Below are positions 18,740 through 24,059 of a stretch of 64,000 bases of DNA, piece after piece. The notes under the pieces were generated by a model. It saw nothing but the letters and a program-made list of their open reading frames with translations. It was not told the origin of the DNA and did no database searches. A program made the position numbers and the translations under genes. The stretch is taken from positions 274,320-338,319 of the forward strand of contig JAVXUO010001926.1 in assembly GCA_033065855.1 (NCBI GenBank), written 5' to 3'. How positions within the stretch are numbered: position 1 is the stretch's first letter; each line of letters opens with the position of its first letter. The DNA is from Escallonia rubra. Lineage: Eukaryota; Streptophyta; Magnoliopsida; Escalloniales; Escalloniaceae.

Positions 18740-18748
18740 ATTATTTTT

Positions 18749-19731
18749 GGGTTAATTACTCACAGCACCCCTGAGGTTTACCCTAAATTACATACGGACC
18801 CCCCTATCTTTTGAAAGTTACACTCCGCTCCATTTCTTCGACGGTGTTAATGGTGGGACGCAAAAAGACATTTTTACCCTTGGAGGGACTGTCTGGCTCT
18901 TCACTCCTGGCTACACTGGTCGGAATCGGCCATCGAGGACCGGATACGTTGCCGACAGTAGTGATTCCATGGTTGTTTTGGAGGTTGCGGTGGGCGGTGT
19001 TTCCAATGGAGGGCGATGGTTCAGTGTCGCAGTGGTGCGCGTGGCCGGAGAATGAGGGGTGGTTGACCAGGAGATGGCACCGAAGATGGTGCCGGAGATG
19101 AATCCCGCGCGGTGGTGGCTGCGGCGCGATGGTCGCCGCTGTTGTGTCGTGGTGTACACTGTAGGCGACGCCGGAGTCCATCGCCGGAGAAGAAACTGGC
19201 AGAGTAGAAGAAGCCCACCGTCGCGAGAAGGCCCTCGCCGAGAAGAAGCGCCAAGGAGGTTGGCTCCGCCGAGAATGAGGGCTGGTTCACCACGAGATGG
19301 CACCGAAGATGGTGCCAGAGATGAATCCCGCGCGGTGGTGGCTGTGGCACGGTGGTTGCCGCAGCTGTGTCGTAGTGTACACCGGAGGCGATGCCGGAGA
19401 AGAAACCGGCAGAGGAGAAGAAACCCACTGTCGCCGTGAAGGCCCCTGTCGAGAAGAAGCCCAAGGCCAAGGAGGCCAGCTCCGGCGCCACCGGAGACAA
19501 AAAGAAGAAGAAGTCCAGGAGTCTTTAGACAAAAAGAAGAAGAAGGGAGGGCAGTTTGGGGATGAAAAATCCAAAAAGAGAATTTTTAGACGGAGTTAGG
19601 GTCCCCGTCAATTTTCTGGGGCTCTGTGAAATGCGGGTACAAACTACAGGGGGTTTAGTGTAATAAAAATTCTTAGGCCCAGCCGTGTGTAATTTAGGGC
19701 AAACCTCAGGGGTGCCGTGTGTAATTTACCC
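18749..19731 (+). mobile_element. Mutator-like element (MULE 1) carrying an H2B-tail-like segment
   Basis: Terminal inverted repeats: left GGGTTAATTACTCACAGCAC then CCCTGAGGTTTACCCTAAA, right complement GGGTAAATTACACACGGCAC then CCCTGAGGTTTGCCCTAAA. Flanking 9-bp duplications are ATTATTTTT (18740-18748) and ATAATTTTT (19732-19740), one mismatch. Long TIRs with 9-bp target duplications define Mutator-like elements. There is no transposase. The GC-rich interior holds a ~223-bp tandem duplication (about 19043-19266 and 19267-19488), which includes the H2B-like frame described separately. Such non-autonomous elements with captured gene pieces are called Pack-MULEs. Confidence 0.8.
19391..19528 (+). 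pseudogene. Histone H2B N-terminal-tail-like ORF inside MULE 1
   Basis: An ATG-initiated 45-codon frame reads MPEKKPAEEKKPTVAVKAP, VEKKPKAKEASSG, GDKKKKKSRSL and then stops. Alternating EKKPAE and APVEKKPKA motifs followed by a GDKKKKKS lysine block are the hallmark of plant histone H2B N-terminal tails, just ahead of the histone fold. The fold itself (starting ETYKIYIF in typical H2Bs) is absent. A second, older copy on the same strand at about 19184-19260 reads PEKKLAE, a stop, KKPTVA. I infer capture of the first part of an H2B gene by the transposon. Lysine/alanine-rich low-complexity drift is the alternative. Transcription is unknown. Confidence 0.65.
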
Positions 19732-19757
19732 ATAATTTTTTATATATATTATATAAA

Positions 19758-19913
19758 GGGTAAATTACACACGGCACCCCTGAGGTTTGCCCTAAACTAC
19801 ACACGGCTCCGCCTAAGTATTTTTATTACATTAAACTACACTTATTTTTCCATTCAAAGATTTAACAGAAGTAAGAAAATGACGGTAATACCCCTGATAA
19901 ACAAGTTAATTTA

Positions 19914-20998: not shown

Positions 20999-21140
20999 GA
21001 TCAAAGGGGTGCTCCCCCCAAGGGGGTCGGCCACCCCAAGGGGGTCGGCCACCCCAAGGGGGTCGGCCACCCCAAGGGGGTCGGCCACCTCAAAGGGTCG
21101 GCCACCCCAAGGGGTCGGCCACCCCAAGGGGGTCGGCCTC
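20999..21140 (+). repeat. 18-bp minisatellite, CCCCAAGGGGGTCGGCCA
   Basis: Seven consecutive copies of an 18-bp unit, CCCCAAGGGGGTCGGCCA, with two copies shortened by one or two bases. Each unit contains a CCCC..GGGG inverted pair, so the array can fold into repeated short hairpins. It keeps frames open on both strands, which creates long spurious ORFs. Confidence 0.9.
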
Positions 21141-21274: not shown

Positions 21275-21440
21275 CCTTAAGCCCTCGCCGGCTCAATCAA
21301 CCGACGGGCTCCGGCCCTCGCGGGCACAATCAACCGGAGGCTCCGGCCTTCGCCAGCACAATCAACCGACGGGCTCCGGCCCTCGCAGGCACAATCAACC
21401 GGAGGCTCCGGCCTTCGCCAGCACAATCACCCGACGGGCT
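21275..21440 (+). repeat. GC-rich ~36/72-bp tandem repeat
   Basis: Alternating half-units GGGCTCCGGCCCTCGC..GGCACAATCAACC and GGAGGCTCCGGCCTTCGCC..AGCACAATCAACC repeat about two and a half times with a higher-order period near 72 bp. Part of the LTR-like segment; no gene content. Confidence 0.75.
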
Positions 21441-24059
21441 TCAGGGGGCTCCGCTCGTAGTGCCCCGGCACGAGGACCCACCGCTACGGACTCCGAGCAT
21501 CAAGCCATGAACATGCGCGCTCATATCACCGTTGATTATCGACGTCGTCAGGGCAATGAACCGCGGGTCACTCCGGGATGGGAGCAGGTCCTCGGAGGGC
21601 ATCGCGTCCGGCACGCCTGGCAGTTGGCTGCAGGGGCAACCCTTACCGCTGCCAGGATCTCTGCGCGTCTCATGACGCATCTCGTGGGATTCAGTAAGGG
21701 CTTGGACTGGAGGCTGGGGCAATGGGCTGCTCTGACCATGCTACCGCAGTGTGGTCAGTCTCCTCAGACAGGCAGAGGGACGCTGCAAGGGCAGGGCGGC
21801 ATGAACTCGGGGGCCAGCATATCCGACGAACGATCAATACCGCAGGACCCCCTACGGCGACGTGTCACTCCCGGAGGACGACACGTGTCGGCTGATGACA
21901 CGCGCATATTTGTGCCTATATATAGTGGATGCTGTAGCTTATTCAAGGACTTCTCTCTCATTTTGGACATTTCACTTTCTCTCTCTAAAGCTCATTCTCT
22001 CTGGATTTCTAGTGAGAGAAAGACATTTGGACTCCTGTCATCGGACTCTTGACGCTGCACCCTTGACGCGAACTGTCGGCTGTTGACTGTCGCCCCTGCT
22101 CGTCGTCTCCCTGCTTACGCGGCGCTGCCAGCCCTCGCGACCTGCCTGGGGAGCCTTGCTCTCAGCCCTTACTCCATCTTTGTTGTTTCCCACTTTGTCT
22201 AGCTGGAAGCCAACGCAGACTGCATCCTTTGTGGCACCTCACGTGGCATGCGAACCAACTTTCCTCGGCAACACCAATCAATCTATCGAATCCTCAATTG
22301 TTCAATTAATTCAATACGACTAAGGATAACCCAACAACATTCATATCAAAGCACTACAATTCATCAATTGTCTTAACAAACCCTTCTCATCACCAAACAA
22401 TTGTAAAGTACTTAATTTATTATGTTATGCATTGTTTCCCTCGCAGGGGCTTAAATAACAAACAATGAAAATGCTAATCTAATCCATAATCAAGCTCATT
22501 GGCTCCAAACTCTTACTGACGATTATTTCCTGTAGAAAGGAACAGAAAAGGGAGTGAGCTTTCGAGAGCTCAGTAAGGTCGCTCAGAATTCAATAGAGAA
22601 TACAAACGATTTGGAAAGAATATATCAATGCCAATATGAAAGAATATTCTCAATTTCTCAATTTAAGATTCAATAGATACACTTTCGATTTCACTGAAGC
22701 AATGCAAATGATATTGAACATGAGTATAATGCAAAGCCACACATGTTGTGCAGGGAAATCACTTAGCAAAGCCACAAAGGCGATGCTCAATAATACTGTA
22801 GTTACATATGCATATGAACACTAGCTAGACCTTTAAGGTACTAGCATCACCCGACAATAACAGACCATCCTTATAATGCTCCCGATACAGACCATCCTTA
22901 TAACTCCTCAATACAATAACTCATGTCAATATGCAGAGTGCAAAAATTGATGATGCAATGATTAGATCGATGCACAAAGAGAAATAAATATGTAGCATCG
23001 AAAGGAAATTTTAATAAACGTACAAGGCTTAAAACAAGGTATTAATGGCAATTGATGCAATTTCATCACAATTATAAATGAGTCCAATGGAAACATCAAA
23101 AATAATTTAGAAAGAATATTTATGATGTCAAATAGATGAAATAAGATTTCGGAAGAAATCCCTTACCTCAATCCAAGCGCTGAAGCTAAAAATGCTCTCG
23201 ACCAAATTCCTCAAGGTTAACCTAGGTTGGCAGAGTCATTTATCAGAGCACTTATTCATACTACTACATTAAAATCTTAATATAGTTATCCATAGTGTAC
23301 CCATTTCTCTACCCAGACATGATGAAACTCGGAGCGGTTTCCCACACGGCCAACCTACCCCGAAATTCATCACACTCCCCGAGACTCAAAAATATTCCAA
23401 AAATATTCTAATCGTTCATTAAACATTATTTATAGCATAATATAGCATATGTGATAAAAATATCATTTTTAAATATTTTTTATTATTTTTGAATTATTCT
23501 TAAATACACTAAAACCAATAAATTGCCAAAATTTCTTCTAGCTGGAAATAAAGGCTCATAATTTTTTTTAGCAGCTTTAGAAGACTTATAAAAATTATTG
23601 AAATTGAAATCAGAAATTAAAAGGCATTAAAACTATTTTAAAATTGTTCATTTGTTAAATCCAATGCGATAGAGAAACGATAGCAAAAGAACTCTAAAAA
23701 TCACCAAATTTATATTGAGTCTTTATTATACTATAAAAATATTACTATAATGTTTCCTAGAACATTTTCAGGGTTTAAAGGCTCCAAAAATATTTTATAA
23801 GTCTGAACTTTTGAAAAATATTAAAAATACATACATTGTCAGAAAAATATAAAACTTTACCAGAAATTCTATTATAAGCTAAGGTGTTATATTCTAAATT
23901 TTCATGTGCTAAGGATAACTGTAGACTATCGAATGCTCACGATGTACTTAAAGCTAACTCGATACTTGCTCTGCACTATGCTATCTTGTTCAGTGCACTT
24001 AGCCTCTACTTCACTTACACACCCTCACAACTCATGAACCTCACCTAAACATGCATTTC

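Follow-up and report, generated by a model that had tools for sequence, protein, structure and literature searches.

PMC8903248 gives more than 3000 annotated Pack-MULEs in rice, and accounts of such elements in rice and other plants (PMC8903248, PMC4858842) describe features that recur at the locus reported here: terminal inverted repeats (TIRs), target duplications of the 9-bp class, a gene fragment with an identifiable donor, no transposase found inside the element, and multiple copies. The present family differs from those accounts in that its cargo is the gene of a core histone with the fold included, in that it has been multiplied to dozens of sites and comprises numerous deletion derivatives, and in that no link to an autonomous element was found.

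Histone genes have been taken up by fungal DNA transposons. According to PMC6710886, a hAT element of Pseudocercospora fijiensis captured and amplified the core histone gene H3, the copies decaying and the original remaining intact, which history resembles the one proposed below; that case, however, concerns a fungus, a hAT element, H3 taken up apparently as a spliced transcript or a retrocopy, and RIP, whereas ours concerns a plant, a MULE, and H2B captured as a segment that includes the donor 3' UTR. The H3-like transduplication of Pyrenophora tritici-repentis, as PMC3538342 describes it, likewise involves a DNA transposon that carries a histone gene and exists in two forms, one longer than the other, but its H3-like genes are full-length, ESTs are recorded, and one form is likely autonomous, whereas here the donor start codon is missing and no autonomous partner was found. 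In the literature searched, which covered few subscription journals, we found neither H2B in a Pack-MULE nor any plant H2B capture, and the portions available of PMC6710886, PMC8277862, PMC8903248, PMC4858842, and PMC3538342 yielded no plant H2B capture either. In view of these fungal precedents with histone H3, we consider the find only mildly notable.

The reading that we favor, to which we assign a probability of about 0.92, is that of a Pack-MULE carrying an H2B gene captured from one donor in the C1792 cluster and present at many loci, with the copy studied here being a decayed deletion derivative whose ATG is private and whose H2B sequence is passenger DNA.

Structure of the element

The window, by which we mean the whole 64,000-nt stretch of DNA analysed, contains on its forward strand a non-autonomous MULE of 983 bp (18749-19731), classed as a Pack-MULE deletion derivative from its ends, its target duplication, and its eight near full-length siblings. 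The 5' TIR (18749-18824, forward strand) and the 3' TIR (19656-19731, reverse strand, inner end approximate) can be aligned over about 76 bp with 60 of 73 positions identical; in the siblings L018 and L050 the alignable TIR extends to about 165 bp, with 133 of 159 positions identical in L018. A repeat search of the window returned inverted arms at 18745-18797 and 19683-19735 that were 89% complementary, and the TIR pattern occurred three times in the window as against a mean of 0.00 in 100 shuffles. The element is flanked by ATTATTTTT on the left (18740-18748) and ATAATTTTT on the right (19732-19740), identical at eight of nine positions. The MULE termini claimed by an earlier sequence-only reading were accordingly borne out by the inverted arms, the TIR alignment, and the target duplication, while the 9-bp duplication that it had also claimed is present though imperfect. 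Among 49 distinct two-ended elements, the duplications agreed at 9/9 positions in 29, 8/9 in 12, 7/9 in 3, and fewer in 5, so that 41 of the 49 stood at 8/9 or 9/9; two mismatches are tolerated in target duplications of 9-11 bp in PMC4858842. No transposase was recognized inside the 983 bp, in that 8 of the 10 ORFs of at least 30 aa gave no Pfam match (the 31- and 35-aa ORFs being left out), and the element does hold captured cellular gene sequence whose donor we identify below.

The interior contains a tandem duplication, in which unit 1 (223 bp, 19048-19270) and unit 2 (19271-19490, end approximate) share a 129-nt block at 89% identity with a spacing of 223, followed by 42 nt at 90% with a spacing of 210. 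Each unit contains an H2B-derived tail segment on the forward strand: that of unit 1 (19185-19256; element positions 437-508) has an in-frame TAG common to all nine copies of the subfamily, while that of unit 2 (19395-19520; element 647-763 or 649-772 in the matches to host H2B genes) lacks 15 bp of the tail. Both the 223-bp duplication and the stop in one of its units had been noticed from the letters alone, and both stand.

Further MULE sequence lies nearby, a second TIR at 19758-19788 (31 nt, 0 mismatches) beginning 26 bp past the element end and having no partner end up to position 24000. Two tandem repeats follow in the window, one of 18 bp in 6.9 copies (21016-21138) and one of 65 bp in 2.5 copies (21281-21440).

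Siblings, copy number, and donor gene

In the genome searched (566 Mb in 3222 contigs), a whole-element DNA search with 40 of 2197 candidates scored returned the window copy and eight near full-length siblings at 90-94%, these siblings being 95.8-97.5% identical to the window copy. A second subfamily of ten copies (L038-L047) is also without the fold. A protein search with an H2B sequence as query gave 120 matches (150 of 161 candidates scored): the best six (L009-L014, on C1792 and C1793) are open H2B frames with no TIR in the DNA fetched, and in the next 14 (L015-L028) an H2B fold is accompanied by the same TIRs, with both element ends found in 11 and one end in L019, L022, and L024. The insert that the sequence-only reading had proposed seeking in sibling MULEs therefore exists, in the eight near full-length siblings and in the 14 sampled fold-bearing copies.

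With a 40-nt capture-junction pattern (at most three mismatches) we counted 75 sites as against 0 for the reversed control, some of these sites being close neighbours separated by 106-124 bp, and none of those listed belonging to the window subfamily; a 48-nt TIR pattern gave 521 sites and 0 in its control, each such site being an end and not an element. Two or three H2B-tail junctions stand about 106-124 bp apart at C1235:119914-120195, C1041:336745-337025, C1674:278711-278874, and C1726:182937-183082, and the tandem duplication of the lysine-rich tail thus seems to recur. At C2685:106971-111421 three junction sites are spaced by about 2.2 kb, which points to either elements arrayed in tandem or a segmental repeat. 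No autonomous partner was identified by the TIR pattern among the matches listed; in a search for MULE transposase domains all 150 scored of 3309 candidates exceeded the cut-off, and none was linked to these TIRs. A facing pair of the same TIRs 7.5 kb apart at C1254:47031-54530 is a candidate autonomous element.

For all 14 fold-bearing copies the best of the six host genes was L011, on C1792, at 89.6-96.4% over 410-469 aligned nt, the matches starting at coding nucleotide 27 or 31 in 13 of the copies and at 48 in L015. The latter (C333), which at 1652 bp is the longest element extracted, matches L011 at 447 of 469 nt and reaches about 66 nt past the L011 stop into the 3' UTR, with sharp edges; a 199-nt end piece of L015 matched nine places, and its first 69 nt matched only C333, C1080, and the C1792 gene. 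A 133-nt stretch adjoining the 3' UTR in L015 has full-length matches at five further places and a partial one at another, none of them with the UTR, and may perhaps be element sequence or a second captured piece. From these alignments we identify the donor as the H2B gene at C1792:392204 or an ancestor of it. The captured segment, as the edges delimit it, starts near codon 10, takes in the histone fold, and in the longest copy reaches the 3' UTR, the start codon of the gene being absent. The sharp-edged match of more than 80% to an H2B gene that the sequence-only reading had named as support was obtained for the siblings (at the identities just given) and not for the window copy, whose tail reaches only about 78% (78.3% over 129 nt, E 3.6e-23; 78.4% over 139 nt), its best host gene among the six being L013, at 78.4%.

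Loss of the fold

The copies differ in how much of the captured gene they retain. Many lack the fold. The H2B 3' UTR survives in L015 alone of the MULE copies read (the unread C1080 copy also matches the UTR), and an upstream block is kept in 5 of the 14 fold-bearing copies (L015, L017, L020, L023, and L026) and absent in the other nine. The 15-bp loss in the tail is common to 9/9 window-type copies, to 10/10 of the second subfamily, and to L048, which has two mismatches there; the tail of L048 runs straight into a later part of the fold, whose 3' half is retained along with the remainder of H2B. In the window copy the tail is followed by an 11-nt remnant of the fold, CCAGGAGTCTT (19515-19525), which recurs exactly within the folds of L018 and L027 and was joined to the tail by deletion; next come a 19-nt filler (19527-19545), identical to the tail's own AGACAAAAAGAAGAAGAAG at 19495-19513, and element sequence that is not H2B. 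These observations, namely the fold-bearing siblings and the fold remnant at the deletion junction, lead us to reject the capture of a tail alone, and the original description of a captured tail without its fold is not supported.

Because the window's tail-fold junction occurs in 9/9 copies of its own subfamily and 9/10 of the second, we infer that one ancestral event probably produced it; L047, the one copy of the second subfamily in which the junction is missing, counts against our main reading. The point at which the fold was lost differs in other copies. By its shared junctions, as opposed to a dated tree, L048 has the appearance of an intermediate. The history that we propose would begin with a single H2B capture followed by stepwise deletions, to an intermediate of which L048 may bear resemblance; the copies would have spread through a transposase supplied in trans, would have undergone methylation and silencing, and the H2B cargo would have drifted without function.

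Small-RNA potential of the family

The alternative that survives best, though we still consider it unlikely, is that the H2B-carrying MULE family feeds 21-24-nt small RNAs that would act on the host H2B genes. Taken together, the shared 21-mers from the 37 sampled elements span 396 of 447 nt in the coding sequence of the donor and 156-403 nt in each of the other five host genes, and the five fold-bearing copies listed have 136-221 21-mers in common with the donor gene; in rice, furthermore, 24-nt small RNAs have been linked to MULE methylation, as PMC4858842 reports. Against this proposal, the six host H2B genes keep open frames, and the window copy shares with the six coding sequences a single 21-mer (with L012 and L013) and no 24-mer, for which reason it would be a poor small-RNA source. 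Should some part of the family act on the host H2B genes, it is probably not the window copy. The suggestion, made from the sequence, that the element might feed small RNAs against H2B genes is consequently weak for the window copy and is possible for its fold-bearing siblings.

Mutation and selection on the cargo

C>T and G>A together account for 50 of the 76 private substitutions in the nine window-type copies. For the 14 fold-bearing copies pN/pS was 0.42, compared with 0.022 among the six host genes, and a GY codon model preferred an omega below 1 (free lnL -1248.0 vs -1276.4 at omega 1, with a kappa of 6 that was the best of five values tried and was not optimised). Since plain pN/pS and codon models ignore methylation-type mutation, and since the 14 copies had been picked by protein similarity, which choice biases toward apparent constraint, we attribute the low pN/pS and the codon-model signal to those two causes. 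In a context-aware test, with rates by context taken from the non-H2B parts of the same elements, the private changes comprised 34 nonsynonymous or stop and 32 synonymous as against 48.5 and 30.4 expected (p 0.10), while distinct alleles gave 57 and 43 (p 0.36); the nonsynonymous deficit considered alone (34 vs 48.5) does count against neutrality, with a one-sided Poisson p of 0.018 that ignores the error in the rates. Over codons 17-79, the 23 truncated copies, which lack part or all of the fold, had 21 nonsynonymous or stop and 10 synonymous changes against 16 and 12 in the fold-bearing copies (Fisher p 0.43, on small numbers). Strong selection on the cargo, as the codon models had suggested, was therefore unsupported by either the context-aware count or the truncated-copy comparison; the context-aware test shows no significant constraint, weak or past constraint being possible.

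These numbers bear on the proposal that some fold-bearing copies encode a selected H2B variant, having an upstream fusion or an altered C-terminus, which we regard as very improbable. The H2B frame is open in 8 of the 14 copies, a stop or frameshift interrupting it in the remaining 6, and in two of the 14, L025 (C1574) and L027 (C2741), an in-frame ATG precedes a complete open fold within stop-to-stop frames of 179 and 186 aa; to these facts may be added the pN/pS and the codon models below neutrality. The other 12 copies, however, have no in-frame ATG before the fold, and the context-aware test, the lack of a significant difference from the truncated copies, and the far lower pN/pS of the host genes all speak against a selected variant. 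The broader notion that the near-identical copies act on the host at all, either by small-RNA tuning of H2B dosage or through a fusion H2B from copies such as L025 and L027, would in our estimation have a slim chance of being correct.

The 45-codon frame

The sequence-only reading had drawn attention to a lysine-rich frame of 45 codons with an ATG and a stop of its own, which frame is indeed present on the forward strand at 19391-19528, from ATG to TAG, and whose proposed H2B origin has been upheld by the match to host H2B DNA and by the fold-bearing siblings. Since the frame searched alone had no Pfam match, we base its identity as H2B on the DNA and on the siblings and not on a protein domain. 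A functional H2B gene would have a start codon, a tail, and a complete fold; the window copy is without the fold, and its ATG is private. The codon aligned with that ATG is ACG in all eight siblings, and the alignment with them points to a private CpG C-to-T transition at 19392 as the change that created the start.

That the frame might be a functional, expressed H2B-tail microprotein is, then, exceedingly improbable. No stop interrupts the frame, and the stretch from start to stop is likewise uninterrupted in 8/8 siblings; such openness, however, is to be expected because the copies are young, as their identity of 95.8-97.5% to the window copy indicates. The ATG is missing from every one of the eight siblings, and the TAG (19526-19528) spans the edge of the filler, so that the stop sits on the deletion/filler junction, and a start and stop of its own are accordingly no sign of function. 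On the strength of the private ATG we reject a functional tail frame. Because of that ATG we judge the 45-codon frame to be an apparent accident of the window copy, and most likely it does nothing.

The notion that the resemblance reflects lysine-rich low complexity and not H2B, in favor of which one could cite the simple composition of such tails and the failure of the frame alone to match Pfam, has next to no probability and is already refuted, together with the corresponding objection foreseen by the sequence-only reading, by a contiguous DNA match in a sibling that runs through the fold into the donor's own 3' UTR.

Meaning of the finding

The captured H2B gene and its decayed derivative in the window provide a traceable plant case of a DNA transposon that captured and multiplied a core-histone gene, with the donor, the edges, the deletion junctions, and the decay all within one genome. 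The case also carries a caution, in that methylation-type mutation acting on young copies can yield both a neat small frame in a transposon and a naive dN/dS far under 1.
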